A DNA stretch of 64,000 nucleotides, from contig NZ_SWDV01000028.1 in the NCBI RefSeq assembly GCF_005877905.1, positions 1 through 64,000 on the forward strand. The letters are read 5' to 3'. The stretch's first letter is position 1, and every line of letters begins with the position of its first letter. A model generated the notes under the pieces. The model was not told the DNA's origin, ran no database searches, and saw nothing but the letters and a program-made list of their open reading frames with translations. Origin of the DNA: Pseudomonas nicosulfuronedens (GTDB lineage: Bacteria; Pseudomonadota; Gammaproteobacteria; Pseudomonadales; Pseudomonadaceae). The position numbers and the translations under genes were made by a program. Positions 4,456 through 38,170 of this stretch are shown here, in pieces.

Positions 4456-4459
4456 CTTC

Positions 4460-5401
4460 ATGACACCAGACCTCAAGGTGCTCGAAGCCGCCGCCACCTG
4501 GTACGTACAGTTCAGCGCCCACCCGCCGCGCGACAGCGAACGCCAGGCGTGGCGCCAGTGGCTGGAAGCGGACCCCGCGCACCGCCTGGCCTGGGAGCGC
4601 GTCGAGCGCCTGCAGGGGCAATGGGCGGCACTGCCTCGGGACGTTTCGCTGAACACCCTCGCCGGAGTGCGCGCACGTCGGCGCGCGGTGCTCAAGACAG
4701 TCGCATTGCTGATTTGCGCGGGGGGTGCGGGCTGGTTGGCGACCGGTTCGCGCCCCTACCAGGCGCTGCTGGTCGGCGAGCGTACCGGAGTGGGCGAACG
4801 ACGCCAGCTGCAACTGGCGGACGGCACACGCGTCGACCTCAACACCAGCACCGCGCTGGACGTGGCCTACGACGAGCGCCTGCGCCAGATAAAACTGCGT
4901 GAAGGCGAAATCCTCGTGGAAACCGGCAAGGACCCTGCCGGCCGCCCCTTCATCGTACAGACCGCGCAGGGCACGGTGCGCGCGCTGGGCACCCGCTTCA
5001 GCGTACGTTGCCACTCGAAAGACACCCGCGTGAGTGTGCTGGAGCACGCTGTGGAGCTACGCGCCCTGGAAGCAGCGGATCGACCACGGCGGCTGGAGGC
5101 CGGCCAGCAGGCGCGCTTCGACGAAGCCTGGGTCTCGCCGCCGACACCACTGCGCGAGGGCGAGGGAGCCTGGGCCAAGGGCATCCTCACCGTGGTGGAC
5201 TGGCCGCTGGGCGAGTTCATCGCCGAGCTGGACCGTTACCGCCATGGCCTGCTGCGTTGCTCGGACGAGGTGGCGGGCCTGCGTTTGTCCGGCGCCTACC
5301 GCCTCGACCAGATCGACGCGATCCTGCACAACCTGGGCAAGTCGCTGCCCGTCCGCGTGACTTATCGCACCCGCTACTGGGTCACCGTCGAGGCGGTCTG
5401 A
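4460..5401 (+). CDS. FecR-like anti-sigma factor / signal transducer (cassette 1)
   Basis: A 313-residue inner-membrane regulator. The cytoplasmic N-terminal FecR domain (residues about 8-55, AATWYVQF, then WRQWLEADPAHRLAWERVE) holds the sigma factor. A single membrane segment follows at about 77-96, preceded by RARRRAVLK. The periplasmic domain carries the typical ADGTRVDLNTSTALDV, VRALGTRFSV and SVLEHAVEL stretches and receives the signal from the STN domain of the receptor. It sits between its sigma factor and the receptor gene, the standard FecIRA order. The double arginine before the membrane segment recalls Tat-assisted insertion known for some FecR proteins. Confidence 0.93.
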   Translation: MTPDLKVLEAAATWYVQFSAHPPRDSERQAWRQWLEADPAHRLAWERVERLQGQWAALPRDVSLNTLAGVRARRRAVLKTVALLICAGGAGWLATGSRPYQALLVGERTGVGERRQLQLADGTRVDLNTSTALDVAYDERLRQIKLREGEILVETGKDPAGRPFIVQTAQGTVRALGTRFSVRCHSKDTRVSVLEHAVELRALEAADRPRRLEAGQQARFDEAWVSPPTPLREGEGAWAKGILTVVDWPLGEFIAELDRYRHGLLRCSDEVAGLRLSGAYRLDQIDAILHNLGKSLPVRVTYRTRYWVTVEAV

Positions 5402-5410
5402 CCGGCGCCG

Positions 5411-5440
5411 GAAAAAAATCTTCAGGAAGGGTTGCCGATT
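5411..5440 (+). promoter_or_regulatory. Putative FecI-type promoter of receptor gene 1
   Basis: GAAAAAAAT at 5411-5419 and TTGCCGATT at 5432-5440, with first bases 21 bp apart. The layout matches those before the second and third receptor genes and resembles my recollection of the E. coli fecA promoter (GAAAAT ... TTGTCC). An ATTCTC-rich stretch directly downstream (5440-5454) could in addition bind Fur. Confidence 0.55.
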
Positions 5441-5516
5441 TTCATTCTCGTTCGGCCAACACAGGAAGCAGCCGTGAGCGCTGCCACTGCGTACCCGCCA
5501 ACGAAAGGAAAATCGA

Positions 5517-7964
5517 ATGTCGTACTCCCCTCCGAGCGCCGCCCGGCCCCTGTCCCGCGCCATCCACCTGGCGCTGCTGAGCCTTGCACTGGGTGGCACT
5601 TCGGCTCTGGGCGCACTGCCGAACCTGGCGCTGGCGCAATCGCTGGAGAACAGCCAGGTGACGGCCTTTCAGGTCCAACCGGGCGAGCTCGGCCAGGTCC
5701 TGAGCCAGTTCGCCACCGACGCCCACATCACCCTGTCCTTCAGCGCCGAGCAAACTCGCGGCCGGCACAGCGCCGGATTGCAGGGCAGCTACAGCATCGA
5801 CGCCGCTCTGGCGAAGTTGCTCGCCGGCAGTGGCCTGCGCGCCCAGCGCGAGGACAACGGCGGCTACGTGCTGGTGCGCGACGAGGGCGCGCTGGAGATG
5901 GACGAGACCACCATCACCGGGCAGCTGGGAGCCACCACCGAGGGCACCGGCTCGTACACCACCGGCTCGACCAGCACCGCCACCAAGATGAACCTGTCGA
6001 TCCGCGAGACGCCGCAGTCGATCAGCGTCGTCACCCGCCAGCGCATGGACGACCAGAACCTGCAGAGCATCTCCGAGGTGCTCAACCAGACGCCCGGCGT
6101 GACCATGTCCCAGGACGGCGGCGAGCGCTTCAACATCTACTCCCGCGGCAGCGCCATCAACACCTACCAGTACGACGGCGTGACCACCTACCAGGAGAAC
6201 CAGACCCGCACCATGCCCAGCACCCTGATGGACATGGCGATCTACGACCGCGTGGAGGTGGTGCGCGGTGCCACCGGCCTGATGACTGGCGCCGGCGACC
6301 CCAGTGGCGTGGTCAACGTGATCCGCAAACGCCCGACCCGTGACTTCCATGCCTACGTGCAGGGCGGCGTCGGCTCCTGGGACTACAAGCGACTGGAGAC
6401 CGACGTCTCCGGCCCGCTGACCGACACCGGCAACCTGCGCGGGCGCATGGTCGCCGCGAAGCAGGTCAACGACACCTTCATGGACTGGTACCAGCAGGAC
6501 CGCGACATCGTCTACGGCGTCATCGAGGCCGACCTCACCGACACCACGGTGGCGCGCCTGAGCATCGACCACCAGCGCTATCGCCCCACCGGCGCGCAGG
6601 GTGTGCCGATGCTCTACACCAACGGCGAGCAGACCGATTTCTCGCGCTCGACCAGTTCCGGCGCGCGCTGGAACGAGGACCGCTTCGACACCAACAACTA
6701 CACCTTCGGGCTCGAACAGCAGCTGGCCAACGACTGGCAGCTGAAGGTCGCCGCGACCTACATGGAGGTCGACCGCGACACTCGCACCGGCTCCTACCAG
6801 AGCTCCACCGGTATGTCCTACATCACCCCCGAGGGCATCGCCAACATCAACCAGGCGTACTCTGAAGCCAACCAGCGGCAGAAGGCTGTCGACGCCACTG
6901 TGCAGGGTCCGTTCGAGCTGTTCGGCCAGACCCACGAGCTGATCTTCGGCGCCAACTACCTCGACTACGTGAACCACCATTACGCCTGGACCGGGCCGAC
7001 GGCGAAGGTGGACTTCAATACCTGGAACAACGAGCTGCCCAAGCCCGACAAGGACGGCTTCGCCCCCTCGCTGGACTACGACGTGGACACCCAGCAGAGC
7101 GGCTACTTCGGCGCCGCGCGTTTCAACCTCATGGACGACCTGCACCTGATCCTCGGTGCCCGTGGCAGCAACTACCACTATCACTACTACTCGAAAAGCA
7201 TCGCCTCGGGATACGTGCTGGACTACGGCATGACCGAGCGCGGGGTGGTCACGCCCTATGCCGGCCTGGTCTACGACCTGACGCCGGACCAGTCCGTCTA
7301 CGTCAGCTACACCGACATCTTCAAGCCACAGTCCAGCCAGGATCGCAGCGGCAAGGTGCTCGACCCGGTGGTCGGCAAGAACTACGAGGTCGGCTGGAAA
7401 GGCGCGTTCTACGACGGCCAGCTCAACGCCAACGTCGCCGCCTACCTGATCAAGCGCGACAACGTGGCCGAACTGGACGCCGGCTACACCGTGCCCGGCA
7501 CCGACGAAGACGCCTACAAGGCAGTGAGCGGTGCCAAGACCAAGGGTATCGACCTGGAACTGGCCGGCGAACTGGCGCCCGGCTGGCAGTTGCAGACCAG
7601 CTTCAGCCACTCGCGTACCGAAGATGCCGACGGCGAGCGGCTGACCACCCAGCTACCGCTGGACACCTTCCGTCTGTGGAGCACCTACGACCTGCCCGGC
7701 CAATGGAACCGCCTGACGGTGGGCGGCGGCGCCAGCTGGAACTCCAGCAACTCGCTGTACTTCAGCCGCTACAACAGCCGTGTGGGTCAGGACGACTACA
7801 CCGTGGTCAACCTGATGGCGCGCTACCGTCTCACCGACCAGCTCTCCACCACGCTGAACCTCAACAACGTACTGGACGAGAAGTACTACGCGGGGTTCTC
7901 CGGCAGCTACGCCCATTACGGTGCGCCGCGCAACCTGATGATGAACGTGCGCTACGACTTCTGA
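5517..7964 (+). CDS. TonB-dependent siderophore receptor with STN signalling domain (receptor 1)
   Basis: An 815-residue outer-membrane transducer. A signal peptide ends near residue 40 (LALA). An STN domain follows at about 50-115 (FQVQPGELGQVLSQFATDA ... LAGSGLRAQ). A TonB-box-like segment EMDETTITG lies near residue 130. The plug domain spans about 160-280 (RETPQSISVVTRQRMDDQ ... VEVVRGATGLM) and is followed by a 22-strand barrel. It ends in VRYDF, with the terminal Phe expected for Bam-dependent insertion. Family knowledge: such FpvA/FoxA/FecA-like receptors import a ferric siderophore and signal to FecR through the STN domain. The ligand cannot be read from the sequence. A ribosome-binding site (AAGGAAA) precedes the ATG. 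It closely resembles receptor 3 in the linker between STN domain and plug. Confidence 0.94.
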   Translation: MSYSPPSAARPLSRAIHLALLSLALGGTSALGALPNLALAQSLENSQVTAFQVQPGELGQVLSQFATDAHITLSFSAEQTRGRHSAGLQGSYSIDAALAKLLAGSGLRAQREDNGGYVLVRDEGALEMDETTITGQLGATTEGTGSYTTGSTSTATKMNLSIRETPQSISVVTRQRMDDQNLQSISEVLNQTPGVTMSQDGGERFNIYSRGSAINTYQYDGVTTYQENQTRTMPSTLMDMAIYDRVEVVRGATGLMTGAGDPSGVVNVIRKRPTRDFHAYVQGGVGSWDYKRLETDVSGPLTDTGNLRGRMVAAKQVNDTFMDWYQQDRDIVYGVIEADLTDTTVARLSIDHQRYRPTGAQGVPMLYTNGEQTDFSRSTSSGARWNEDRFDTNNYTFGLEQQLANDWQLKVAATYMEVDRDTRTGSYQSSTGMSYITPEGIANINQAYSEANQRQKAVDATVQGPFELFGQTHELIFGANYLDYVNHHYAWTGPTAKVDFNTWNNELPKPDKDGFAPSLDYDVDTQQSGYFGAARFNLMDDLHLILGARGSNYHYHYYSKSIASGYVLDYGMTERGVVTPYAGLVYDLTPDQSVYVSYTDIFKPQSSQDRSGKVLDPVVGKNYEVGWKGAFYDGQLNANVAAYLIKRDNVAELDAGYTVPGTDEDAYKAVSGAKTKGIDLELAGELAPGWQLQTSFSHSRTEDADGERLTTQLPLDTFRLWSTYDLPGQWNRLTVGGGASWNSSNSLYFSRYNSRVGQDDYTVVNLMARYRLTDQLSTTLNLNNVLDEKYYAGFSGSYAHYGAPRNLMMNVRYDF

Positions 7965-24175: not shown

Positions 24176-24328
24176 ACCCAGGCCTTGTCCGCGGCGGACC
24201 ATGGATTGTCCGCCAAAGCCCATCAGCCTCCATCGAGCTTGCCTAGCATCGGCATCCAGAGGGGTGACCAGCCCCCGCTCCGCCGACTTCAAGCCGTGCG
24301 TGCCACGGCCCTGCTGCAAGGACAAGCC

Positions 24329-26653
24329 ATGCATAGACTCATTCCGCGCGCCCGTCGTTCCGGCCTGGCGCTGCACCCGCTGACCCTGGCGCTGCTGCTG
24401 GCCACCGGCAACGCCTTTGGCGACGAGCCGGACACCACCAGTGATGGCCAACCCACCGTCGACGCCCTGCAGACGGTCACCGTGACCGCCCGCCGCCGCG
24501 AAGAGAACGCCCAGGACGTGCCGACGCCGATCACCACCCTGAGCGGCGACACCCTCGACAAGCAGCGCATCTACAAGATCCAGGATTTGCAGCAGGCGCT
24601 GCCCAGCGTCAACGTCGCCTACATCCACGCCCGCCAGTCGAGCCTGGCGATACGCGGCATCGGCAACAACCCGGCCAGCGACGGCCTGGAAGGTTCCGCC
24701 GGCATCTACCTGGACAACGTCTACCTCGGCCGGCCGGGCATGGCGGTGTTCGACCTGATGGACATCGAGCAACTGGACCTGCTGCGAGGCCCGCAGGGCA
24801 CCCTGTTCGGCAAGAACACCACCGCTGGCGTGCTGAACATCACCACGCGCAAGCCGACCTTCACCCCCGAGAGCAGCATCGAGACTTCCGGCGGCGAGAA
24901 CGGTTATTTCCAGGGCAAGGGCAGCGTCTCCGGTCCGCTGACCGATACCCTCGCCGGACGCCTGTCGCTCTACCGCACCCGTGACGACGGCTACCTGAAC
25001 AACCTGGCCGACGGTCGCACCCTGCTGGGCGGCGAGCGCGAGGGCGTCCGCGGCCAGTTGCTGTTCCAGCCCAACGACGACTTCAACCTGCGCTGGATCA
25101 ACGAATACAACAGCGAGAACTCCAGCCAGGGCAGCGGCGTGATCTACGGCGGCTCCGACCTGTTCTGGCGCCGCGCCGCGCTGGTCGGCGCGCACCCGGT
25201 GCAAGGCAAGTCCAACATCGATGGCCGGCAGAATGTCAGCGTCCACCAGAACGCCAGTTCGGTGGAAGCCAACTGGAACCTCAATGGAGGCTACAAGCTG
25301 ACCTCAATCAGCGCCTACCGCTACTGGCACTTCAACCCGGCCAACGATTCGGACGAGCTGGACGTCCCGGTCATCCGCGACCTGGGCTACGAAATCCACG
25401 ACCGCCAGTTCTCCCAGGAAATCCGCCTGGCCTCGCCCACCGGCGGCGCCTTCGACTACGTGGTGGGCGCCTACGCCTTCCGCCAGAGCCTGAACAACCG
25501 CTACTTCGTCAACCTCGGTCCATTGGCCGACCTCAACCTGATCGGTGCGAACCTCAATGCGCTGAACAACGTCAGCAGTACCAGCAAGGGCTGGATCGAC
25601 ACCGACAGTTTCGCCCTGTTCTCCCAGGGCACCTGGCACCTGACCGACAAGCTCGACTTCACCCTCGGCCTGCGCGGCACCTACGAGGAGAAGAAGGCCC
25701 AGGTCGAGCGCTCGTCCCCCGTGGGCGGCGCTCCGGTCAGCGGCCTGCCGGCGGCGATCCGCGCCAGCCAGGCCGGCGCCTACGACTCCGGCGACCTCAG
25801 CCTGCACAACGCCGCACCCTCGGCGCTGCTGAGCCTGAGCTACCGGTTTGACGACAACCTGCTTGGCTACGCCTCGCTGTCCCACGGCGAGAAATCCGGC
25901 GGGGTAAACCTTACCGTGGGCAGCGCGCCGAGCGCCGGCGCCGACTCCCTGCTGGTCGGCCCGGAACGAGCCAATGATGCCGAACTGGGGATCAAGAGCA
26001 CCCTCTTCGACCGCCGCCTGCAGCTCAACGCCAACCTGTTCTGGACCGGAATCACCGGCTACCAGGCCACCACCTACTACCAGCCCTCGGGTTCGCTGAC
26101 CGGCTACCAGGTGCTGGCCAATGCCGGCGACCTGCGCTCGCGCGGCCTCGAGTTCGAAGCCACGGCCCTGCCGTTGCGCGGCCTGACACTGAACTTCAAC
26201 GGCTCGTTCAACGACGTCACCTACCTGTCGTTCAAGGACGCCCCCTGCCCAGCCGAGGTCAGCAGCCAGCCCAATGCACCGGCCACCTGCGACCTCTCGG
26301 GCGAGCGGGTAATGGGCGCCTCGCGCTGGATCGCCAACCTCAACGGCGAATACAAGTGGCAGCTGGACAACCGCTTCGAGCCCTACGTCACCGCCAGCTA
26401 TGCCTACCGCTCCGAAGCCGAGGGCACGCTGGACAACTCCAATCTGTCGAAGATCCCCGGCTACGGCCTGGCCAATTTCTCCGTGGGCCTGCGCCACGAG
26501 GTCGGCGACGGTCTGCTGGACGCCTCGCTGTGGGTGAAGAACGCCTTCGACAAGGAGTACTACCAGGCGGTCATCGCCTCCTCCAACGGCCTGTACGTGG
26601 GCTATCCCGGTCAGCCACGGGTCACCGGCGTGACCCTGCGCTACGATTTCTGA
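24329..26653 (+). CDS. TonB-dependent receptor without STN domain (OAR-like)
   Basis: A 774-residue outer-membrane receptor from the ATG at 24329 (AAGGA upstream). The signal peptide ends near residue 32 (NAFGDE). A TonB-box-like LQTVTVTARRREE follows directly, then the plug (DVPTPITTLSGDTLDK ... LLRGPQGTLFGKNTTAGVLN) and a barrel ending RYDF. The sequence style (VTVTARRRE, RGPQGTLFGKNT) is that of the large IroN/OAR-like receptor group used for vitamins, carbohydrates and organosulfur compounds rather than of siderophore receptors. There is no STN domain and no FecIR partner; local control is by the AraC gene. It is followed 7 bp later by a flavin monooxygenase gene, suggesting import of that enzyme's substrate. 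Confidence 0.9.
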   Translation: MHRLIPRARRSGLALHPLTLALLLATGNAFGDEPDTTSDGQPTVDALQTVTVTARRREENAQDVPTPITTLSGDTLDKQRIYKIQDLQQALPSVNVAYIHARQSSLAIRGIGNNPASDGLEGSAGIYLDNVYLGRPGMAVFDLMDIEQLDLLRGPQGTLFGKNTTAGVLNITTRKPTFTPESSIETSGGENGYFQGKGSVSGPLTDTLAGRLSLYRTRDDGYLNNLADGRTLLGGEREGVRGQLLFQPNDDFNLRWINEYNSENSSQGSGVIYGGSDLFWRRAALVGAHPVQGKSNIDGRQNVSVHQNASSVEANWNLNGGYKLTSISAYRYWHFNPANDSDELDVPVIRDLGYEIHDRQFSQEIRLASPTGGAFDYVVGAYAFRQSLNNRYFVNLGPLADLNLIGANLNALNNVSSTSKGWIDTDSFALFSQGTWHLTDKLDFTLGLRGTYEEKKAQVERSSPVGGAPVSGLPAAIRASQAGAYDSGDLSLHNAAPSALLSLSYRFDDNLLGYASLSHGEKSGGVNLTVGSAPSAGADSLLVGPERANDAELGIKSTLFDRRLQLNANLFWTGITGYQATTYYQPSGSLTGYQVLANAGDLRSRGLEFEATALPLRGLTLNFNGSFNDVTYLSFKDAPCPAEVSSQPNAPATCDLSGERVMGASRWIANLNGEYKWQLDNRFEPYVTASYAYRSEAEGTLDNSNLSKIPGYGLANFSVGLRHEVGDGLLDASLWVKNAFDKEYYQAVIASSNGLYVGYPGQPRVTGVTLRYDF

Positions 26654-26660
26654 GGTACAC

Positions 26661-27974
26661 ATGAGCCAGACACAGATCAGCCTCGGCGCCTTCCTGATGG
26701 GCAGCGGTCACCACCTGGCCGCCTGGCGCCACCCCCTATCGCCGCCGGGCGCCCTGGACCTCGGCCACTTCCGCCGGCTGGCGCAGACTGCCGAGCGCGG
26801 CCTGTTCGACGCGATCTTCTTCGCCGACAACCTCGCCCTGCTCGGCAGCAACGAACTCGCCGCACAGACCACCCACGGCGAAGTGTTCGACCCTTTGGTG
26901 CTGCTCGCCTCACTGGCCTCGGTCACCGAGCGCATCGGCCTGATCTCCACGGTGTCAACCAGCTTCAACGACCCCTACCTGCTGGCTCGCCGCTTCGCTA
27001 CCCTCGACCACCTGTCCGGTGGCCGCGCCGGCTGGAACCTGGTGACCTCGGCGACCGACCAGGAAGCGCAGAACTTCGGCCTGGAGCAGCACTTCGAGCA
27101 CGCCGACCGCTATGCCCGCGCCGAGGAGTTCATCGATGTGGCCCGTGGCCTGTGGGACAGCTTCGCCGACGATGCCTTCCTGCGTGACAAGCCCGGCGGC
27201 CGCTACTTCGCCCCGGAGAAACTGCGCACCCTCGCCCACCATGGTGACTACTACCGGGTGCGCGGCCCGTTGAACCAGCCTCGCTCGCCACAGGGTCATC
27301 CGGTGCTGGTGCAAGCGGGATCGTCGGAGCCGGGCAAGGCGCTGGCCGCGCGTACGGCCGAGGTCGTGTTCACTGCGCAGCAGACCCTGGAGGACGCCCG
27401 TGCGTTCTATACCGACCTCAAGGGCCGACTGGCTGCCCACGGCCGGGAGGCGGACGAACTGAAGATCATGCCGGGCATTTCCCCGGTCATCGGGCGCACC
27501 CAGAGTGAAGCCGAGGACCTGCAGGCCGAGCTGCAAGGCCTGATCGAACCGCAACTGGGCCTTGCCCTGCTCTCGGGCATGGCCGGCGGCCTCGATCTCT
27601 CGCAGTTCCCGCTGGATGGCCCCTTGCCGGAGCTGCCGCCCAGCAATGCCATGAAGAGCCGCCAGGCGTTGTTCGTCGAATTGGCCCGGCGTGAAAACCT
27701 GACGTTGCGCCAGCTCTACCTGCGGGCTGCCGGCGCGCGCGGGCACTGCACGCTGGTGGGCGCCCCCAGGCAGATTGCCGACCACCTGGAAGCCTGGTTC
27801 AGCGCCGGCGCCGCCGATGGTTTCAACATCATGCCGCCGTTGCTGCCCCACGGCCTGGACAGTTTCGTCGAACTGGTGGTGCCGGAGTTGCAGAAGCGCG
27901 GCCTGTACCGTCGTGAATACCGTGGCAGCACGCTGCGCGAACACCTCGGGCTGCGTCGGCCTGAACGTCGCTAG
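26661..27974 (+). CDS. FMN-dependent monooxygenase of the NtaA/SnaA/DszA family
   Basis: A 437-residue luciferase-like flavin monooxygenase. It begins ISLGAFLMGSGHHLAAWRHP and contains FDAIFFADNLALL, the group signature LSGGRAGWNLVTSATDQEAQNFG, and HPVLVQAGSSEPGKALAARTAEVVFT. Family members need a separate FMN reductase and oxidise chelators, dibenzothiophene sulfone or alkyl sulfur compounds. No reductase is encoded nearby, so one must be supplied in trans. It is in an operon with the TonB receptor 7 bp upstream. Desulfonation or oxidation of an organosulfur compound is the most likely role given arylsulfatase and sulfur-sensing neighbours, but the substrate is unproven. Confidence 0.88.
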   Translation: MSQTQISLGAFLMGSGHHLAAWRHPLSPPGALDLGHFRRLAQTAERGLFDAIFFADNLALLGSNELAAQTTHGEVFDPLVLLASLASVTERIGLISTVSTSFNDPYLLARRFATLDHLSGGRAGWNLVTSATDQEAQNFGLEQHFEHADRYARAEEFIDVARGLWDSFADDAFLRDKPGGRYFAPEKLRTLAHHGDYYRVRGPLNQPRSPQGHPVLVQAGSSEPGKALAARTAEVVFTAQQTLEDARAFYTDLKGRLAAHGREADELKIMPGISPVIGRTQSEAEDLQAELQGLIEPQLGLALLSGMAGGLDLSQFPLDGPLPELPPSNAMKSRQALFVELARRENLTLRQLYLRAAGARGHCTLVGAPRQIADHLEAWFSAGAADGFNIMPPLLPHGLDSFVELVVPELQKRGLYRREYRGSTLREHLGLRRPERR

Positions 27975-28552: not shown

Positions 28553-29593
28553 TCAGTGCGCCGGCACCGTCTCTTCGCGACAGGCGGACGGGCTCTGTCC
28601 GGTCCAGCGCTTGAAGGCCCGGCGGAAGCCGCGCACGTCGCTGTAGCCGAGCGCTTCGGCGATACGTTCGATGGGCATTCGAGGGTTGCTCAGCAGGCTC
28701 ATGGCACGTGCGCGGCGGACCTTTTCCTGTAGCGCCTCGAAGGTCATCTGCTGCTCGCCCAGGCGCCGGCGCAGGGTGCGGCTGCTCATGTTGAGGTCGG
28801 CAGCGATCTTGTCGATCTGGCAACCCTCGGGCAGGTCGCGAAGGATGGCGCGTTCCACACTTTCCAGCAGCCCGGTTTTCTGTTGCTGTGGTGCGCCGAC
28901 CGTCTCCAGGAGGTCAAGCGCCTGGCGCAGGGCGACGGGCTGGTGGCTGGGCAGTTGCAGGTCCAGCCAGTGACTGGCGATGAGCATGCGGTTACGTGCG
29001 CAACCAAATGCCAGGTTCGGGCCGAGCAGGCGTTGATACTCCGCCTCGTAGCTCGGCGCGGCATGGGTGAACTCGAACCGCAGGGGCTGGAAGGCGTTGC
29101 CGATCAGGGCGCGGTTGTACACCAGCACACTGGCAAAGAACTCCTCCACGGCGAAGATCTGCACGTCGGCGTAAGGCAGTCGGCACTCGACTTCAATGGC
29201 GCTTTCCTCGGGCCCTTCCAGCAGGTTGCACAGCGTCATGCCGCCCGTGGTGTGCTGGAAGCGCCGGCCCACCTCGAAGGCATCGCGCAGGGTCCTGCAC
29301 AGCGACAGCACGTGGCCGAGCAAGCCGAGGGTGCCGAGTACATTATGGTCGCCCACCCAGAGGCCCAGGCCGCGCTCGGGCAACGCCTCCAGCGCGCGCT
29401 GGATCATGTTCACGGCCTGACGGTAGGAGATTCGCCGCGCCGGGTCCTGCAGTTCCTCGACGTTGAAGCCGAGCCCGAGGCACAGCCGCTCACCGCTCAC
29501 GCCCTTGCTGCTGGCGACCTCGGCAAGGGTCTGCAGCAGGAAGGGCGAAACCTGGGCCAGATCGAGCTGGGCATCGACGGGGGAGCTGGGCAT
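28553..29593 (-). CDS. AraC-family regulator (OruR-like)
   Basis: A 346-residue regulator with an N-terminal arabinose-binding-like ligand domain (LLQTLAEVASSKGVSGERLCLGLG ... GLGLWVGDHNVLGTLGLLGH) and a C-terminal AraC double HTH (IAADLNMSSRTLRRRL and AEALGYSDVRGFRRAFKRWTGQSP). The overall layout matches OruR/GbdR-like activators of catabolic genes. The PLP/oxidase/cytochrome set immediately upstream on the same strand is a plausible target, but it is separated by a good terminator at 29753-29781, so the link is by proximity only. Confidence 0.88.
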   Translation of the reverse strand: MPSSPVDAQLDLAQVSPFLLQTLAEVASSKGVSGERLCLGLGFNVEELQDPARRISYRQAVNMIQRALEALPERGLGLWVGDHNVLGTLGLLGHVLSLCRTLRDAFEVGRRFQHTTGGMTLCNLLEGPEESAIEVECRLPYADVQIFAVEEFFASVLVYNRALIGNAFQPLRFEFTHAAPSYEAEYQRLLGPNLAFGCARNRMLIASHWLDLQLPSHQPVALRQALDLLETVGAPQQQKTGLLESVERAILRDLPEGCQIDKIAADLNMSSRTLRRRLGEQQMTFEALQEKVRRARAMSLLSNPRMPIERIAEALGYSDVRGFRRAFKRWTGQSPSACREETVPAH

Positions 29594-29752: not shown

Positions 29753-29781
29753 AGAAAAAACCCCAGGCCGGCAGCCTGGGG
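29753..29781 (-). terminator. Rho-independent terminator of the DSD1/oxidase/cytochrome operon
   Basis: Stem CCCCAGGC / GCCTGGGG with a 5-base loop. On the minus strand it is followed by a run of six T. It lies 25 bp after the stop of the last gene and is the clearest intrinsic terminator in the window. Confidence 0.9.
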
Positions 29782-29805
29782 TTGTTCATCGAGCCGAACC
29801 GGAGC

Positions 29806-31083
29806 TCAGCTGTAGACAGGCCAGTGCTCGACGATGCGTCCTCCGCGCACCGCCAGCAGGTCGCCGAATTGCAGCAGGATCGACTCGGACTGGGTCGGGC
29901 GCAGGAACATCTGGTCATCCACCTTCAGGCCCACGGCGCTGGAGCCGTTGACCATCTCCTGGTTGGAGCTGCGTCCGTACAGGCCGTTGAACTGCAGTCC
30001 CCTGGGCGACTCGGGCTCGGCCATCCAGTTGCCGCCATAGACGAAGAAGGTCTCGCGCTGGTTGGGGTCCCACCAGGAGAACAGCTGCGATTTGCCGTCC
30101 AGCGCCGGAATCCGCACCGGGCCGGTGCTCTTGATGACCGGCGTGGCGATGAAGGCAGCCGGCTGGTGGTCCACCAGGGATGGCAGGTCATAGTGCGTCG
30201 GCTTGACCAGCGCCGAGCCCACCGACACCTCGGTGCTGGTGCGCTCGTTCTCATGCATCCGGTAACTCGGACTACCGGCGGTATTGAGCGTCAGCCCCGG
30301 CTTCCACAGCGGCGCATGGCGGGTGCGCGCGTAATCGACGAAGCCGTCGTAAAGCTGCATGACCTTGGCGAAAAGCTCCTCCGAGGAACCGAGGACTTCC
30401 GGCACGCCCATGCCGACGAAGGGGTCGTAGCCCATGAAGCCGGCGAACTCCAGGTGCTGCGGGTTGGCGCCGATGATCGTGAGCATCCGGTCCAGGGTGT
30501 CGTGGTCGGCCACGCCACCCCGGTGAAGCCCCACGTCCAGCTCGATATTGATCCGCAACCGGGTGTTGCGCCCTTGCGCCAGCGCCAGGTACTGCTGCAG
30601 GCGCTCGGGGGTGTCGAGCAGCCATTGCAGCTGGGTCGTCGGGTCGAACGAACCGCGAAGGTTCTCGTAGAACTGCTGCGCCGACCCCACCGGCAGCGGC
30701 TTGCCGAGCAGCAGGTCGGAATCGGGGAAACGCTCGGCATCGTGGTTGAGGAAGGGCTGGTGGAACGACATCATCCGCCGGGTGCCGGCACGCTGGGCGA
30801 TGTAGTCGAGCAATTGCGGCGATGGCAGGGACTTCTCCACCACGCGCAGGTGTTTGCCGGTGCGGGCTACCGATTGCATCACCACGTCGACGTTGTGGTC
30901 CAGCCGGTCCAGGTCGATCAGCATCACCGGGCGCATCGGCCCGTGTTCGCGCAGCTCGCGGTTCAGCCGGGTGAAGTAGTCGTCGTACGGGGCGCCGTGG
31001 TCGCCCGGTCGCAGCCAGGCGCCGGCACCGGCGAGCAGGACGCCCGCGCCTGCCGCGCCGACGAGGAAATTGCGTCGTTTCAT
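29806..31083 (-). CDS. Exported DSD1/alanine-racemase-fold PLP enzyme
   Basis: A 425-residue protein from the ATG at 31083. The N-terminus MKRRNFLVGAAGAGVLLAGAG is a signal of Tat type, so export as a folded cofactor enzyme is likely. The body is the D-threonine aldolase / D-serine dehydratase-like barrel: VMLIDLDRLDHNVDVV, then LRVVEKSLPSPQLL with the PLP-binding Lys, INIELDVGLHRGG, and a C-terminal domain with ESILLQFGDLLAVRGGRIVEHWP. Known relatives cleave D-threo-hydroxy amino acids or dehydrate D-serine in the cytoplasm, so an exported member is unusual. It is the last gene of a three-gene operon with a FAD oxidase and a cytochrome c. Substrate unknown. Confidence 0.8.
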   Translation of the reverse strand: MKRRNFLVGAAGAGVLLAGAGAWLRPGDHGAPYDDYFTRLNRELREHGPMRPVMLIDLDRLDHNVDVVMQSVARTGKHLRVVEKSLPSPQLLDYIAQRAGTRRMMSFHQPFLNHDAERFPDSDLLLGKPLPVGSAQQFYENLRGSFDPTTQLQWLLDTPERLQQYLALAQGRNTRLRINIELDVGLHRGGVADHDTLDRMLTIIGANPQHLEFAGFMGYDPFVGMGVPEVLGSSEELFAKVMQLYDGFVDYARTRHAPLWKPGLTLNTAGSPSYRMHENERTSTEVSVGSALVKPTHYDLPSLVDHQPAAFIATPVIKSTGPVRIPALDGKSQLFSWWDPNQRETFFVYGGNWMAEPESPRGLQFNGLYGRSSNQEMVNGSSAVGLKVDDQMFLRPTQSESILLQFGDLLAVRGGRIVEHWPVYS

Positions 31084-31099
31084 GGGTTGTTCTTCCTTG

Positions 31100-32494
31100 T
31101 CAGGCCACGCCCAGGATCGATGACAGGTGGGCATTGAGGAACTTGCCCTGCGGGTCCAGCTCGCGGCGCACCTCGGTGAACTCCTTCCAGCGCGGATACA
31201 GCGGTTGCAGCGTGCGCGCGTTCAGCGTGTGCAGCTTGCCCCAGTGCGGCCGGCCGGCGTACTTCCAGAAGATCGGTTCGACGGCGGCGAAGAAGTTGTG
31301 GTGGTCCATGCTGTAGTGCTGGTGCACGGAGATGGAGCAGCTGTCGCGCCCCTCGAACATGCTCAGGGGAATGTCGTCGGCTTTCACGTAGCGGTATTCG
31401 ATGGGGAACCAGGTGCGCAGGTCCTTGTCGTTGATCAGCTTGAGTATCTCGCGCAGGCAGGCCGGGCCGTGTTCGGCGGGCACGGAGTATTCCATCTCGT
31501 TGAAGCGCACATTGCGCACGTTGGCGAAGATGTCGTAGGAGTCGCCGACCCGGTCGTCGAAGCTGGCGACATGGCGCAGGCTATTGAGCAGGAAGCGCCG
31601 CGCAGCGGGGAAGTCGCTGCCGTACTTGTCGAGGTTCTCGATGATGCTGACATAGCCGTTGCCGCCCTCCTCGGCCGGGTCCAGCGGCGGCGTGGCCGGG
31701 TCCTCGGTCTCGTTCAGGGCGATGGACAGCGCGTAGTCGGAATGGGTGAGCACCTGCATTTCCCAGTGCTGGTTCTCGCGGGTGTTCTTCTCCACGTCCT
31801 CCAGCAGTTCTTCGGTACTGGCGATCCACTGCCGTTCGCGCAGGCGAAAGGCCGCGCGGTTCTGCAAGCGCACTCGGGTAGCGACACCGAAGGCGCCGAG
31901 GGACACCCGCGCGGCGTTGAACACCTCGGGATGCCGCTGGGCGTCGCAATCCAGCACCTCGCCACTGGCGGTCACCAGTTGCAGGCCGGTCACGCGGGTG
32001 GAATAGGAACCGAAGCCGACGCCGGTGCCGTGGGTCGAGGTGGAGATCGCCCCGGCCAGGGTCTGGTAGTCGATGTCCGACATGTTCGGCAGCGCTTGGC
32101 CGATCTCCTTCAGCGCCGGCCCCATGAGCGACATGGGCGTACCGGCAGCGAACTCCGCCTGCAGCGTGGCGGCATCGTGGCCGAGCAGACCGTTGAAGTA
32201 AGCCAGCGAGACCAGCGTGCCATCCGTGGGCACCAGAGCGCTGAAGGAATGCGCCGAGCCGACCGGACGCACCTTGCCCTCGGCCTGGCGGATGACCTGG
32301 ACCAGTTCGTCGAGACTCTGCGGGGCCAGCCGCGCCGCTGGCAGGCAACTCTGCCCGCCGGACCAGTTGTGCCAGGGGATCAGCCGTGGCGCACGGGCCA
32401 GTTCGGCTGCCAACGGGCTGGTCGACAGCGCGACGAAAGCGCCGGCAATACCGGCGTTTTGCAGGAGCTGGCGCCGGGTAAGTTGAATAGGCAT
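31100..32494 (-). CDS. Exported FAD-dependent sugar-lactone/alditol-oxidase-like protein
   Basis: A 464-residue oxidoreductase of the D-arabinono-1,4-lactone / L-gulonolactone oxidase family. The N-terminus TRRQLLQNAGIAGAFVALS is a Tat-type signal. The PCMH-type FAD domain follows (LVQVIRQAEGKVRPVGSAHSFS, and DYQTLAGAISTSTHGTG). The C-terminal ALO domain ends PHWGKLHTLN ... YPRWKEFTEVRRELDPQGKFLNAH, with the conserved HWGK. Family members oxidise a sugar lactone or polyol and pass electrons to oxygen or cytochrome c. The cytochrome c lipoprotein gene 16 bp upstream in the same operon suggests cytochrome c as acceptor. The gene ends 16 bp before the DSD1-type gene. Confidence 0.85.
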   Translation of the reverse strand: MPIQLTRRQLLQNAGIAGAFVALSTSPLAAELARAPRLIPWHNWSGGQSCLPAARLAPQSLDELVQVIRQAEGKVRPVGSAHSFSALVPTDGTLVSLAYFNGLLGHDAATLQAEFAAGTPMSLMGPALKEIGQALPNMSDIDYQTLAGAISTSTHGTGVGFGSYSTRVTGLQLVTASGEVLDCDAQRHPEVFNAARVSLGAFGVATRVRLQNRAAFRLRERQWIASTEELLEDVEKNTRENQHWEMQVLTHSDYALSIALNETEDPATPPLDPAEEGGNGYVSIIENLDKYGSDFPAARRFLLNSLRHVASFDDRVGDSYDIFANVRNVRFNEMEYSVPAEHGPACLREILKLINDKDLRTWFPIEYRYVKADDIPLSMFEGRDSCSISVHQHYSMDHHNFFAAVEPIFWKYAGRPHWGKLHTLNARTLQPLYPRWKEFTEVRRELDPQGKFLNAHLSSILGVA

Positions 32495-32510
32495 CGAAGG
32501 AACCCCGCGC

Positions 32511-32879
32511 TTACTGGATCGTCTGGCCGGACATGAAGGAGATCAGCGCGAGGAATTGCTCCTCGGAACACTGCATGCACATGCCCATCGGTGGCATGCC
32601 CTTGAAGCCGTTGATGCTGTGGTCCAACAGGCTGTCGGCGCCCTGGGCGACACGCGGCTGCCAGGCTTTCGCGTCACCGGTCTGCGGCGCTCCGGAGGCC
32701 GGGTTGGCGTGGCAGAGCTTGCAGCTGCTGTCATAGACCTTCGCCAGGGCAGGATCAGCAGGCGCCAGGGCGGCGGTGTTGTGGGTGGTTGTCGGCGCGG
32801 CATCGTCACCACAACCGCCGAGCAGAGCGGACAAGGCCAGCAAGGCAAAAGCGAACCAGGGTGTTGCAGGTTTGTGCAT
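32511..32879 (-). CDS. Class I cytochrome c lipoprotein (c5-like)
   Basis: About 122 residues from the ATG at 32879 (AAAAGGGGG upstream). The signal sequence ends in a lipobox, ALLGGC, so the protein should be lipid-anchored. One heme-binding motif, CKLCH, sits at about residue 52-56. The C-terminal MPPMGMCMQCSEEQ supplies a Met ligand and a CxxC pair typical of the cytochrome c5 group. It is the first gene of the three-gene unit with a FAD oxidase and a DSD1-type enzyme, and is predicted to take electrons from the oxidase and pass them to the respiratory chain (inference). Confidence 0.87.
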   Translation of the reverse strand: MHKPATPWFAFALLALSALLGGCGDDAAPTTTHNTAALAPADPALAKVYDSSCKLCHANPASGAPQTGDAKAWQPRVAQGADSLLDHSINGFKGMPPMGMCMQCSEEQFLALISFMSGQTIQ

Positions 32880-33243
32880 GGAACCCCCTTTTCTCCCCGT
32901 ACGCGACGGCACGGATTCTTGTTGTCATGGGTAGCCGGCAGGTTAAGCCAGGCGCCAGTCGTGCCCGAGGGCATTACCGGCCAAAAAGGGGGTTCTGAGC
33001 GGACAGCATGGCAGCTTTGCCCCTCTGTCGGTTTCAGGATGCGCAGGGTCGCTGCGGTGCAATCCTTGAACACAAGGGATGGCAAGCTTCCATACTGTCG
33101 AGGACCAGGCGCGCCCAGATGCCTGGCCGGAGAATAAGAATGGCGCCCCGAACAGCCACGCAGACCGTGACGTGGCCGGTACGCCGCAGCCGAAGGTTTT
33201 CGGCCCCTGCCCCGGCAGCGGCCGTGATATCGAGGTGCGCTGT
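32880..33243. promoter_or_regulatory. Divergent promoter region between the cytochrome operon and fdsG
   Basis: A 364-bp gap. It must hold the promoters of both divergent operons, but I could not identify a convincing -35/-10 pair or operator. No separate gene is supported; an in-frame upstream extension of fdsG from 33079 has composition unlike the family N-terminus. Confidence 0.4.
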
Positions 33244-33726
33244 ATGCCTGATGATTCGCTTCACCTGCCCCTGATCCACGATGTGCTGGAACGTCTCAAG
33301 GCCACGCCCGGCGCCCTGCTGCCGGTGCTCCATGCCATCCAGGACTGCGTCGGCTACATCCCCGACGATGCCCTCCCCGAGATTGCCCACGCCCTGAACC
33401 TCAGCGTCGCCGAGGTGCGTGGGGTAATCAGCTTCTACCACGACTTCCGCACCTCACCTCCGGCCCGTCACACGCTGCGCCTGTGCCGGGCAGAGTCCTG
33501 CCAGAGCCGGGGCGCCGAAGCCCTGGCTGCACAGTTGCGCGAACAGCTCGAACTGGACGACCACGGCACCAGCGCCGACGGCCGCATTGCCCTGCGCCCG
33601 GTCTACTGCCTGGGCGCCTGCGCCTGCTCGCCAGCGCTGGAACTGGACGGCCGGGTGCATGCGCGCCTCACCCCCGAGCGCCTGCGCAAGCTGGTGAACG
33701 GCTGCCGGGAGGACGCCAAATGCTGA
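33244..33726 (+). CDS. fdsG: NAD-dependent formate dehydrogenase gamma subunit
   Basis: A 160-residue NuoE-like thioredoxin-fold subunit with one [2Fe-2S] cluster. The Cys ligands lie in LCRAESCQSRG and VYCLGACACSPA. Family knowledge: FdsG, with FdsB, FdsA and FdsD, makes the soluble, oxygen-tolerant molybdenum formate dehydrogenase that reduces NAD. The ATG at 33244 has a GAGGTG ribosome-binding site and gives the expected length. The gene overlaps fdsB by 7 bp and opens a tightly packed four-gene operon. Confidence 0.93.
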   Translation: MPDDSLHLPLIHDVLERLKATPGALLPVLHAIQDCVGYIPDDALPEIAHALNLSVAEVRGVISFYHDFRTSPPARHTLRLCRAESCQSRGAEALAAQLREQLELDDHGTSADGRIALRPVYCLGACACSPALELDGRVHARLTPERLRKLVNGCREDAKC

Positions 33727-35279
33727 AGCTGTTCATCCCCTGCGATTCGGTGGCCCGTGCGGTGGGCGCCGACGAGGTGACCGACGCCCTGGTCGCCGAA
33801 GCCGAGCGCCGCCAGTTGCCGCTGGACATCCAGCGCACCAGCTCGCGTGGCCTTTACTGGCTGGAACCACTGCTGGAGCTGGACAGCGACGCCGGCCGGC
33901 TGGGCTTCGGTCCGCTGACGGCGGAAGACGTGCCCGCCCTGCTCGATGCCCTGTCCGGCGACGCGACCAACCATCCTCTGGCCCTTGGGCGGGTGGAAGA
34001 ACTGCCCTACCTGAAGAGCCAGCAGCGCCTGCTCTTCTCCCGTGCCGGCATCACCCGGCCACTGTCGCTGGACGACTACCGCGCCCACGGCGGCTTCGAA
34101 GGGCTGGCCCGCGCCATCGGCCTGGATGGCGCCGACGTCGTCGCCGCGGTGCTCGACTCCGGCCTGCGCGGCCGTGGCGGCGCGGCCTTTCCCGCCGGCA
34201 TCAAGTGGCGCACCGTGCGTGACGCCCCAGGCCCGCAGAAGTATGTGGTGTGCAACGCCGACGAAGGCGACTCCGGCACCTTCGCCGACCGCATGCTGAT
34301 GGAGGGCGACCCCTTCCTGCTGATCGAGGGCATGGCCATCGCCGGCCTCGCCGTCGGCGCGACCATGGGCTACGTGTATGTGCGCTCGGAATACCCGGAC
34401 GCCATTGCCACCCTCAACCAGGCGCTGAAGCTCGCCCGTGACGCCGGCTACCTCGGTGAAGACGTCTGCGGCAGCGGCCGCGCCTTCGAGCTGGAAGTGC
34501 GGGTTGGCGCCGGCGCCTATATCTGCGGCGAGGAAACCGCCCTGCTGGATTCACTGGAAGGCAAGCGCGGCGTGGTCCGTGCCAAGCCGCCGTTGCCCGC
34601 GCTGCAAGGCTTGTTCGGCCTGCCGACGCTGGTGCACAACGTGCTCACCCTGGCCTCGGTACCGGTCATCCTGGCCAGAGGCGCGCCGTTCTACCGCGAC
34701 TTCGGCATGGGCCGTTCGCTGGGCACCATGCCCTTCCAGCTGGCCGGCAATGTCCGCCACGGCGGGCTGGTGGAACGCGCCTTCGGCCTGACCCTGCGCG
34801 AGCTGGTGGAAGACTACGGCGGTGGCACCGCCAGTGGCCGCCCGCTGAAGGCCGCGCAGGTGGGCGGACCGCTGGGCGCCTGGGTGCCACCATCGCAGTT
34901 CGACACCCCGCTGGATTACGAGGCCTTCGCTGCCGTCGGCGCCATGCTCGGTCACGGCGGCGTGGTGGTCGCCGACGACAGCCTGGACATGGCGCGCATG
35001 GCACGCTTCGCCCTGCAGTTCTGCGCCGAGGAATCCTGCGGCAAGTGCACGCCCTGCCGCATCGGCTCGACCCGTGGCGTGGAGGTGGTGGACCGGCTGA
35101 TCGCCACCACCGATATCAGCGCCCGCCAGCAGCAGGCGCAATTGCTCGGCGACCTCTGCGACACCTTGCAATACGGCTCGCTCTGCGCCCTCGGCGGGAT
35201 GACCGCCTTCCCCGTGGCCAGTGCCCTCAAGCACTTCCCCGCCGACTTCGGTCTGGCGACTTCGGAGGCCGACTCGTGA
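33720..35279 (+). CDS. fdsB: NAD-dependent formate dehydrogenase beta subunit
   Basis: A 519-residue NuoF-like diaphorase subunit from the ATG at 33720. After an N-terminal domain of about 110 residues comes the NADH/FMN domain (GLRGRGGAAFPAGIKW, VVCNADEGDSGTFADR, YICGEETALLDSLEG). The C-terminal [4Fe-4S] site is ESCGKCTPCRIG. It binds FMN, NAD and an iron-sulfur cluster and passes formate-derived electrons to NAD. It overlaps fdsG upstream and fdsA downstream (GTGA), implying translational coupling. Confidence 0.94.
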   Translation: MLKLFIPCDSVARAVGADEVTDALVAEAERRQLPLDIQRTSSRGLYWLEPLLELDSDAGRLGFGPLTAEDVPALLDALSGDATNHPLALGRVEELPYLKSQQRLLFSRAGITRPLSLDDYRAHGGFEGLARAIGLDGADVVAAVLDSGLRGRGGAAFPAGIKWRTVRDAPGPQKYVVCNADEGDSGTFADRMLMEGDPFLLIEGMAIAGLAVGATMGYVYVRSEYPDAIATLNQALKLARDAGYLGEDVCGSGRAFELEVRVGAGAYICGEETALLDSLEGKRGVVRAKPPLPALQGLFGLPTLVHNVLTLASVPVILARGAPFYRDFGMGRSLGTMPFQLAGNVRHGGLVERAFGLTLRELVEDYGGGTASGRPLKAAQVGGPLGAWVPPSQFDTPLDYEAFAAVGAMLGHGGVVVADDSLDMARMARFALQFCAEESCGKCTPCRIGSTRGVEVVDRLIATTDISARQQQAQLLGDLCDTLQYGSLCALGGMTAFPVASALKHFPADFGLATSEADS

Positions 35280-38170
35280 TCAATTTCTTCGATCCCGCAA
35301 CGTCCAGCACGAGTGATATCGACCTCGGCACACCCGCCCGCGACAGCGCCGTGCAGGTCAGCCTGAACATCGACGGGCGCGAAATCAGCGTGCCCGCCGG
35401 TACCTCGGTGATGCGCGCTGCAGCCCTGTTGGGCACCAGCATTCCGAAACTCTGCGCCACCGACAGCCTGGAAGCCTTCGGCTCGTGCCGCATGTGCCTG
35501 GTGGAAATAGACGGCATGCGCGGCTACCCGGCCTCCTGCACCACGCCGGTAAGCGAAGGCATGGTGGTACGCACGCAGACGCCAAAACTGGCGAACCTGC
35601 GCCGCAACGTGATGGAACTGTACATCTCCGACCACCCGCTGGACTGCCTGACCTGCTCGGCCAACGGCAACTGCGAGTTGCAGACCGTCGCCGGTCAGGT
35701 CGGCCTGCGCGAGGTGCGCTACGGCTACGATGGCGCCAATCACCTGGAGGACGCCAAGGACGTCTCCAACCCCTACTTCGACTACGACCCGAGCAAGTGC
35801 ATCGTCTGCAACCGCTGCGTGCGCGCCTGCGAGGAAACCCAGGGCACCTTCGCCCTGACCATCGAGGGGCGCGGCTTCGAGTCCCGCGTGGCGGCGGCCG
35901 GCGGCGAGAACTTCCTCGATTCCGAGTGCGTTTCCTGCGGCGCCTGCGTGCAGGCCTGCCCCACCGCCACGCTGATGGAAAAGAGCGTGGTCGAGATCGG
36001 CCAGCCGGACCGCGCTGTCATCACCACCTGCGCCTACTGCGGAGTGGGCTGCTCCTTCCGCGCCGAGATGAAGGGCAACCAGCTGGTGCGTATGGTCCCG
36101 GACAAGAACGGCCAGGCCAACCACGGCCACTCCTGCGTCAAGGGCCGCTTCGCCTGGGGCTATGCCACGCACCCGGACCGCATCACCAAGCCAATGATCC
36201 GCCAGCACATCAGCGATCCCTGGCAGGAAGTCAGCTGGGACGAGGCGGTCACCTACGCCGCCAGCGAATTCCGGCGCATCCAGACGAAGTACGGGCGCGA
36301 CTCCATCGGCGGCATCACCTCCAGCCGCTGCACCAACGAAGAGACCTACCTGGTACAGAAACTGGTGCGCGCGGCGTTCGGCAACAACAACGTCGATACT
36401 TGTGCGCGGGTCTGCCACTCGCCCACCGGCTACGGCCTGAAGCAGACCCTGGGCGAGTCTGCCGGCACCCAGAGCTTCGACTCGGTGATGCACTCCGACG
36501 TGGTGCTGGTGATGGGCGCCAACCCCACCGACGCGCACCCGGTGTTCGGCTCGCAGCTCAAGCGTCGCCTGCGCCAGGGCGCGCAGCTGATCGTCATCGA
36601 CCCGCGGCGCATCGACCTGGTCGACTCGCCCCACGCCCGCGCCGAGCTGCACCTGCAACTGCGCCCCGGCACCAACGTCGCCATGCTCAACGCCCTGGCC
36701 CACGTCATCGTCACCGAGGGGCTGGTCAAGCAGGACTTCGTCGATGCGCGCTGCGAGGCCAGCGACTTCATCCGCTGGCGCGATTTCGTCAGCCTGCCGG
36801 AGAACGCCCCGGAAGTGCTCGGCCCGGTCTGCGGCGTGCCGGCCGAAGAGATCCGCGCCGCCGCCCGCCTTTACGCCACCGGCGGCAACGCGGCGATCTA
36901 CTACGGCCTGGGCGTCACCGAACACAGCCAGGGCAGCACCGCGGTGATGGGGATCGCCAACCTCGCCATGGCCACCGGCAACGTCGGCCGCGAAGGCGTC
37001 GGGGTGAACCCGCTGCGCGGCCAGAACAACGTGCAGGGCTCCTGCGACATGGGCTCCTTCCCCCATGAGCTGCCCGGCTACCGGCACATTTCCAACCAGA
37101 CCGTACGCAGCCAGTTCGAACAGGCCTGGGGCGTGACCCTGCAGCCCGATCCCGGCCTGCGCATCCCCAACATGTTCGAAGCGGCGCTGGGCGGCACCTT
37201 CAAGGCGTTGTACTGCCAGGGCGAGGACATCGCGCAGAGCGACCCCAACACCCAGCACGTCACCGCCGCCCTCTCCGCCATGGAGTGCGTGGTGGTGCAG
37301 GACATCTTCCTCAACGAAACCGCCAAGTTCGCCCACGTGTTCCTGCCGGGCAGCTCCTTCCTGGAAAAGGACGGCACCTTCACCAACGCCGAGCGTCGTA
37401 TCTCCCGCGTGCGCAAGGTTATGGAACCACTGGGCGGCAAGGCCGACTGGGAAGCCACCGTGGCCCTGGCCAATGCCCTGGGCTACCCGATGGACTACAC
37501 CCACCCGTCGCAGATCATGGACGAGATCGCCCGCCTGACGCCGACCTTCACCCGCGTCAGCTACGCCGAACTGGACCGCCACGGCAGCCTGCAGTGGCCG
37601 TGCAACGACGCCGCACCCGACGGCACCCCGACCATGCACATCGAGCAGTTCGTGCGCGGCAAGGGGCGCTTCATGCTCACCGGCTACGTGCCCACCGAAG
37701 AGAAGGTCAACGCCCGCTACCCCCTGCTGCTCACCACCGGGCGCATCCTCAGCCAGTACAACGTCGGCGCCCAGACCCGGCGCACCGACAACGTCGCCTG
37801 GCATGAGGAAGACCGCCTGGAAATCCACGCCAGCGATGCCGAGAGCCGAGGCATCAACGACGGCGACTGGGTTGGCGTGGGCAGCCGCGCGGGGCAGACG
37901 GTGCTGCGCGCCAAGGTCAGCGAGCGCGTGGCGCCGGGAGTGGTCTACACGACCTTCCACTTCCCCGAATCGGGCGCCAACGTGATCACCACCGACAACT
38001 CCGACTGGGCCACCAACTGCCCGGAATACAAGGTCACGGCAGTGGAAGTGGTGCGCGTGTTCCAGCCATCGGAATGGCAGAAGCGCTACCAGGCGTTCAG
38101 TGACGAGCAACGGCGCCTGCTCAAGGACCGCCGCCACGCCCAAGCCGCGCAAGCCGAGGTGCGCCGATGA
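35276..38170 (+). CDS. fdsA: NAD-dependent formate dehydrogenase alpha (catalytic) subunit
   Basis: A 964-residue catalytic subunit starting at GTG 35276, inside the fdsB stop region. The N-terminal NuoG-like part carries a [2Fe-2S] site (KLCATDSLEAFGSCRMC), a His/Cys segment (SDHPLDCLTCSANGNCELQ) and two ferredoxin motifs (CIVCNRCVRAC and CVSCGACVQAC). The molybdopterin domain follows (TTCAYCGVGCSFRAEM, HSCVKGRFAWGY). The active-site Cys, at the position of selenocysteine in FdhF, lies in CARVCHSPT. The C-terminus is the MGD-binding domain (FPESGANVITTDNSDW). It oxidises formate to carbon dioxide. The usual accessory FdsC/FdhD sulfurtransferase is not in the operon. Confidence 0.95.
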   Translation: MINFFDPATSSTSDIDLGTPARDSAVQVSLNIDGREISVPAGTSVMRAAALLGTSIPKLCATDSLEAFGSCRMCLVEIDGMRGYPASCTTPVSEGMVVRTQTPKLANLRRNVMELYISDHPLDCLTCSANGNCELQTVAGQVGLREVRYGYDGANHLEDAKDVSNPYFDYDPSKCIVCNRCVRACEETQGTFALTIEGRGFESRVAAAGGENFLDSECVSCGACVQACPTATLMEKSVVEIGQPDRAVITTCAYCGVGCSFRAEMKGNQLVRMVPDKNGQANHGHSCVKGRFAWGYATHPDRITKPMIRQHISDPWQEVSWDEAVTYAASEFRRIQTKYGRDSIGGITSSRCTNEETYLVQKLVRAAFGNNNVDTCARVCHSPTGYGLKQTLGESAGTQSFDSVMHSDVVLVMGANPTDAHPVFGSQLKRRLRQGAQLIVIDPRRIDLVDSPHARAELHLQLRPGTNVAMLNALAHVIVTEGLVKQDFVDARCEASDFIRWRDFVSLPENAPEVLGPVCGVPAEEIRAAARLYATGGNAAIYYGLGVTEHSQGSTAVMGIANLAMATGNVGREGVGVNPLRGQNNVQGSCDMGSFPHELPGYRHISNQTVRSQFEQAWGVTLQPDPGLRIPNMFEAALGGTFKALYCQGEDIAQSDPNTQHVTAALSAMECVVVQDIFLNETAKFAHVFLPGSSFLEKDGTFTNAERRISRVRKVMEPLGGKADWEATVALANALGYPMDYTHPSQIMDEIARLTPTFTRVSYAELDRHGSLQWPCNDAAPDGTPTMHIEQFVRGKGRFMLTGYVPTEEKVNARYPLLLTTGRILSQYNVGAQTRRTDNVAWHEEDRLEIHASDAESRGINDGDWVGVGSRAGQTVLRAKVSERVAPGVVYTTFHFPESGANVITTDNSDWATNCPEYKVTAVEVVRVFQPSEWQKRYQAFSDEQRRLLKDRRHAQAAQAEVRR

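Follow-up and report, generated by a model that had tools for sequence, protein, structure and literature searches.

A set of three genes on the minus strand (positions 29806-32879) of a 64,000-nucleotide stretch of Pseudomonas nicosulfuronedens DNA (positions 1-64,000 of contig NZ_SWDV01000028.1, assembly GCF_005877905.1; hereafter the window) is the known Pseudomonas sphBCD operon, which helps to clear the antimicrobial lipid sphingosine. Sphingoid bases act as antimicrobial lipids on skin, lung and plant surfaces. The operon has already been described in the genus Pseudomonas, with its mechanism unsolved: in the literature found, the product of SphC and the roles of SphC and SphD in sphingoid-base removal by pseudomonads are unsettled. 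The comparison reported here makes the mechanism testable. We favour, with a probability of about 0.7, a reading in which sphBCD is induced by the regulator SphR, and the flavoenzyme SphC oxidises a sphingoid base, most likely at C1, and is reoxidised by the cytochrome SphB. The comparison adds a stereochemical fit, a pattern in the gatekeeper residue of the oxidase and an apparently altered metal site in SphD, and it yields direct tests of C1 versus C3 oxidation, of cytochrome c versus O2, and of D-aldol cleavage.

Identification of the operon and its probable control by SphR

The first gene, sphB (32511-32879), encodes a c5-type cytochrome c lipoprotein of 122 amino acids (PF13442, E value 1.2e-11) with a CxxCH motif and a lipobox, LLGGC, read from the sequence; the nearest solved structures are those of the soluble cytochromes cA, ScyA and c5. 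It is followed, with gaps of 16 bp each, by sphC (31100-32494), which encodes an exported flavin adenine dinucleotide (FAD) oxidoreductase of the ALO/AldO type (464 amino acids; PF04030, E 6.8e-75), and by sphD (29806-31083), which encodes a D-threonine-aldolase-like pyridoxal 5'-phosphate (PLP) protein of fold type III (425 amino acids; PF01168, E 1.4e-14), both proteins having a twin-arginine (RR) signal. The original prediction, made from the letters of the window, had placed three genes of these families here, and open reading frames (ORFs) and profile matches confirm them; it had suggested a possibly undescribed pathway, and the gene content matches that of sphBCD as described in P. aeruginosa (PA5328-PA5326); its interpretation as a whole is partly supported. 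A hairpin with a T-run at 29759-29783 (minus strand) is the likely operon terminator. The structure, which had been called a clear terminator, is present, but the hairpin scan by itself is at chance level (one hairpin observed versus a mean of 2.2 in shuffled sequences). The published sphBCD operon likewise closes with a predicted terminator (PMC11893366, legend of Fig. 1).

The AraC protein SphR is a sphingosine-binding activator of sphA, sphBCD and cerN, and its half-site, TGNCCSNNRNNSNCC, is doubled with a spacing of 6-8 bp (PMC3900636, PMC5150637, PMC11893366). In P. aeruginosa, sphingosine induces the operon through SphR, and sphBC is required for sphingosine removal (PMC3900636, PMC11893366); both induction and removal would be expected in the window strain. 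Upstream of sphB, at 32969-33005 (minus strand), lies an SphR-type box of two direct half-sites spaced by 7 bp, which matches 16 of 18 letters (two mismatches). The best box 5' of the cytochrome gene matched 15-18 of the 18 letters in 79 of 79 rows (the window and 78 loci with a cytochrome gene), the lowest score being the 15 of L027, and at most 5% of 40 plain shuffles per row reached the observed score. We accept the box because of its position and conservation, and not because of a scan of the window, which alone was not striking (16 sites at three or fewer mismatches versus 11.9 expected).

The adjoining AraC-family gene (28553-29593, minus strand; PF12625/PF12833) is probably sphR, as judged by synteny with loci that carry sphA. 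Relatives of its product at 55% identity or more occur in 42 of 90 loci, and sphA lies between the AraC gene and sphD in 38 of these 42, the arrangement printed for P. aeruginosa. The set is identified by gene content, box and synteny. Beside the AraC gene, sphA is absent in the window and in L021, L024 and L026; a query that detects sphA by tblastn in 38 of 90 loci found no match at the locus or in the window genome, and a profile search found no PF04734 ceramidase (the cerN type) in that genome. The window thus shares with P. aeruginosa sphBCD the order cytochrome c, FAD oxidoreductase, PLP protein, the SphR box, the adjoining AraC gene and the terminator, but differs in that the strain has no sphA, beside sphR or elsewhere, and no PF04734 ceramidase, so that its genome does not contain the complete SphR regulon of P. 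aeruginosa.

Linkage and distribution of the gene set

The tight linkage seen in the window recurs elsewhere. Relatives of the PLP protein numbered 150 in named genomes, and among the best 80 of these 150 the order sphB-sphC-sphD, all adjacent, was found at 78 of 80 loci, far above chance. The exceptions, L085 (P. brassicacearum) and L086 (P. zanjanensis), carry an sphD-like gene with a Tat-type (twin-arginine translocation) start and neither sphB nor sphC in the locus. The genome that contains the window belongs to the Pseudomonas nitroreducens group, and the closest named loci among the best 80 have 95-96% identity to it in the PLP protein.

The oxidase-PLP pair occurs well beyond Pseudomonas, in exported and unexported forms. 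Whole-genome samples, which overlap one another, contained the PLP gene in 19 of 56 relatives, 62 of 293 genomes of the order, 8 of 321 of the class, 14 of 337 of a second class and 20 of 349 of the phylum. A closer examination covered the window together with 91 fetched stretches, 92 loci in all, near relatives included. The FAD gene lay in the same stretch in 69 and was absent from it in 23; the pair is therefore common, and the PLP gene also occurs alone. Nine of the genomes of these 23 loci have an FAD relative elsewhere, and 14 have none at E 1e-30 (G025, G615, G265, G1119, G1121, G1077, G1048, G1101, G1019, G1164, G1075, G1073, G1144 and G1098). In these 14 genomes the PLP protein may work with a different partner or serve a different function.

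SphC and its proposed coupling to a cytochrome

SphC passes the cut-off of TIGR01679, the bacterial FAD-linked oxidoreductases (467.3 bits, cut-off 292.25), and fails that of TIGR01678, the sugar 1,4-lactone oxidases (198.1 bits, cut-off 396.8), so that the lactone-type label that the enzyme had been given is unsupported as a statement on its substrate. Among solved structures it is nearest to 8ot8 and a xylitol (alditol) oxidase, followed by galactonolactone dehydrogenases (GalDH). We aligned the 67 full-length oxidases from the 69 loci with this gene, L132 and L230, which have fragments only, being excluded. The FAD-linking His, the E-x-R motif and the Lys are kept in 67 of 67, and FAD is probably bound covalently via the conserved His. 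With plant L-galactono-1,4-lactone dehydrogenase and the AldO-type alditol oxidases SphC shares the VAO fold and the E-x-R and Lys of the active site; the FAD-linking His is shared with AldO, whereas the GalDH chains among the solved relatives carry Leu there.

In vGalDH, Ala113 at the flavin N5-C4a blocks O2, and Gly at this position opens access; GalDH presumably works with cytochrome c (PMC11099136). This gatekeeper is Ser139 in the window SphC, and among the 67 oxidases it is Pro in 41, Gly in 17, Ala in 7 and Ser in 2; differences from GalDH and the AldO type are the Ser, Ala or Pro found here in the exported form and, for the window SphC, the TIGR01678 score below the cut-off. A cytochrome gene on the same strand is linked to none of the 17 Gly oxidases versus 33 of the 50 non-Gly oxidases. 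Export signals, read by eye, follow the same division: all 14 oxidases without a signal have Gly, and 50 of the 53 exported oxidases have another residue. The three exported Gly oxidases (L187, L188 and L189) are one family, in which an RR signal on the oxidase goes with a Gly gatekeeper, no linked cytochrome and a PLP protein without a signal, the only such case in the 67. Export of the PLP protein mostly tracks that of the oxidase (both exported at 47 loci, neither at 14, the oxidase only at 6). On a tree built without the gatekeeper column the residue requires four changes, three of them forced by supported branches, and in three independent pairs the cytochrome shifts in the same direction 2.5 times on average and never in the opposite one. 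The comparison across bacteria suggests how the oxidase SphC may be wired to the cytochrome SphB, and what SphD may do.

SphD and its apparently altered metal site

SphD is a fold type III PLP barrel in which the PLP lysine is present; the periplasmic broad-spectrum racemases (BsrV) are likewise exported fold type III PLP enzymes. Export signals had been predicted on all three proteins. The lipobox of SphB and the RR signal of SphC bear this out, and for SphD the Tat signal is a motif reading: its N terminus, MKRRNFL, scores below the cut-off of the Pfam TAT_signal profile (12.7 bits, E 0.13, cut-off 22.7), which 11 of 28 SphD relatives match at E of 1 or less (best 0.0046). The earlier label 'DSD1-type' is right for the PF01168 barrel but not for PF14031, the C-terminal domain of DSD1 and D-threonine aldolase, which matched none of 28 SphD members at E of 1 or less (HMMER filters drop most matches above 0.1) and nothing in the whole window genome, with controls positive in 2 of 14.

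From D-threonine aldolase, D-3-hydroxyaspartate aldolase and DSD1 D-serine dehydratase SphD differs in being exported, in having only 16-19% identity to them in fold alignments, in the absence of PF14031 and in carrying Gln398 and Glu400 apparently at the metal-ligand positions. These two residues appear to take the places of H351 and C353 of the Delftia enzyme (named as mutants in PDB titles and taken as the His and Cys/Asp metal ligands of this family), as judged by the offset where the aligned range closes; Glu400 is invariant. Because PF14031 is missing and the metal ligands are apparently lost, the reaction of SphD may differ from that of its relatives. A literature search found nothing on this metal site or on coupling of the SphC gatekeeper to a cytochrome; it did not cover preprints and most subscription papers, nor did it use the word 'gatekeeper'.

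Proposed mechanism and alternatives

The operon, box, families, fold and conserved catalytic residues are observed here; we infer that C1 is the site, that SphC passes electrons directly to SphB, and what SphD does. When sphingoid bases are present, SphR would turn on sphBCD. SphC, exported carrying its FAD, would oxidise a hydroxyl of the base in the periplasm, most likely at C1, and its reduced flavin, shielded from O2, would be reoxidised by SphB, the cytochrome c lipoprotein. In this way the toxic amphiphile would be removed and electrons would pass to respiration, and SphD would act in a second step, after the toxic base had been oxidised. By the Cahn-Ingold-Prelog rules, C3 outranks C1 at C2 of (2S,3R)-sphinganine, and a carboxylate at C1 reverses this order, so that the same centre reads (2R). 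The C1-oxidised compound would then be a D-amino acid with a 3-hydroxyl, the kind of compound on which D-threonine aldolases act.

A sphingolipid substrate is independently supported by L132, a gammaproteobacterium, where a neutral ceramidase gene (508-3186; PF04734, 328 bits) is flanked by the PLP gene on one side and, at the start of the contig, by a partial FAD gene on the other. Ceramidase was found in 2 of 20 genomes with the PLP gene versus 4 of 329 without it in the phylum sample (Fisher p 0.04, uncorrected for kinship), and in 2 of 19 versus 1 of 37 in the relatives sample; this co-occurrence is not proof.

Several observations weigh against C1 oxidation coupled to SphB and followed by SphD. 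The window genome has neither ceramidase nor sphA, and among the 23 genomes in which the PLP gene is unlinked, 14 are without a relative of the oxidase at E 1e-30. The independent switches of gatekeeper and cytochrome are too few for significance, and 17 of the 50 non-Gly oxidases have no linked cytochrome, L220 and L270 among them lying near a contig end. AldO and 8ot8, both named oxidases, have an Ala gatekeeper, so that a non-Gly residue alone does not prove a dehydrogenase. SphD is without PF14031 and apparently without the metal ligands of known D-aldolases. Furthermore, growth with sphingosine does not require sphD, and the authors detected no direct product and allow for an indirect effect (PMC11893366). 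The dispensability of sphD fits a second step after oxidation of the base, without proving it.

Beyond this mechanism, it is possible, and we propose it tentatively, that SphC-SphD is an old module of Pseudomonadota for the breakdown of sphingoid bases, with an exported version, whose flavin is shielded from O2 and delivers electrons to cytochrome c, and an unexported version, which has a Gly gatekeeper and uses O2, the two separated by at least 3-4 switches. In this module SphD, an offshoot of the D-threonine aldolases that lacks their metal site, would act on the C1-oxidised base in its D configuration and give glycine and a fatty aldehyde, as a phosphate-free counterpart of sphingosine-1-phosphate lyase. 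The exported version was sampled in the window and many Gammaproteobacteria, the unexported one mostly in the second class. Sphingosine-1-phosphate lyase, itself PLP-dependent, splits a sphingoid base by a retro-aldol reaction and releases a long-chain aldehyde; it depends on the phosphate at C1 and belongs to a different PLP fold, whereas the proposed SphC-SphD route would oxidise C1 instead and would give glycine.

In an alternative that we consider unlikely, the hydroxyl oxidised by SphC would be the one at C3, which is allylic in sphingosine. The resulting 3-keto base, a 2-amino-3-keto compound, would then be the substrate of SphD, either for a retro-Claisen cleavage or for some other PLP reaction that dispenses with the usual metal. 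This would agree with the lack of an established product (PMC11893366) and with the seeming lack, in SphD, of the metal ligands of its aldol-cleaving relatives. However, the nearest folds to SphD are aldolases, not Claisen-type enzymes. The polyol oxidase AldO, moreover, oxidises terminal CH2OH groups. Finally, the action of sphBCD extends to sphinganine and phytosphingosine (PMC11893366), which makes an allylic alcohol unnecessary. Somewhat less probable again is an indirect detoxification, in which SphB and SphC would oxidise some other periplasmic compound needed for sphingosine breakdown: the authors leave room for this, giving no proof that sphBC suffice (PMC11893366), but the presence of an SphR box upstream of the operon in all 79 rows and the ceramidase within the set of L132 speak against it. 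The sugar part of the original proposal of a hydroxy amino acid or sugar-acid compound, a sugar-lactone or polyol pathway, we reject as highly improbable: PF04030 is named D-arabinono-1,4-lactone oxidase and the solved relatives of SphC include alditol oxidase and galactonolactone dehydrogenases, but TIGR01678 scores far below its cut-off, no sugar gene was recognisable by eye (as distinct from a family search) among recurrent neighbour clusters, and the SphR box and the literature on sphBCD speak against it.

Neighbouring genes

Divergent from the operon, 33079-38170 (plus strand) reads as a nicotinamide adenine dinucleotide-dependent formate dehydrogenase cluster, its names assigned by eye from ORFs; the ORF starts listed for eight relatives included no recognisable counterpart. 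Recurrent neighbour clusters held nothing informative beyond AraC, TonB receptor, oxidase and cytochrome genes.

A second box in the window (24186-24221, plus strand), upstream of genes for a TonB receptor (24329-26653) and a flavin mononucleotide monooxygenase (26661-27974), matches the SphR consensus at 18 of 18 letters with 6 bp spacing. It is kept at 17-18 letters in the four closest orthologues (L271-L274), and 16 other homologues score 12-16. We rejected this receptor as part of the system because of the lower scores of those 16 homologues, because two of the genomes of the closest orthologues (G016, G019) have no sphD match, and because a coding sequence resembling an AraC C terminus, as read from an alignment, extends up to the box, which may be the own site of this adjoining upstream regulator, with a similar motif.

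In other lineages TonB receptors lie closer to the set. In L224 a receptor gene (4401-6755) separates the FAD gene, which it overlaps, from the PLP gene, which is 6 bp away, and L191, L222, L225, L249, L257, L266 and L267 have receptors within 4 kb of the set. Inside or beside the set in several lineages, such a receptor is perhaps an outer-membrane importer that replaces SphA.
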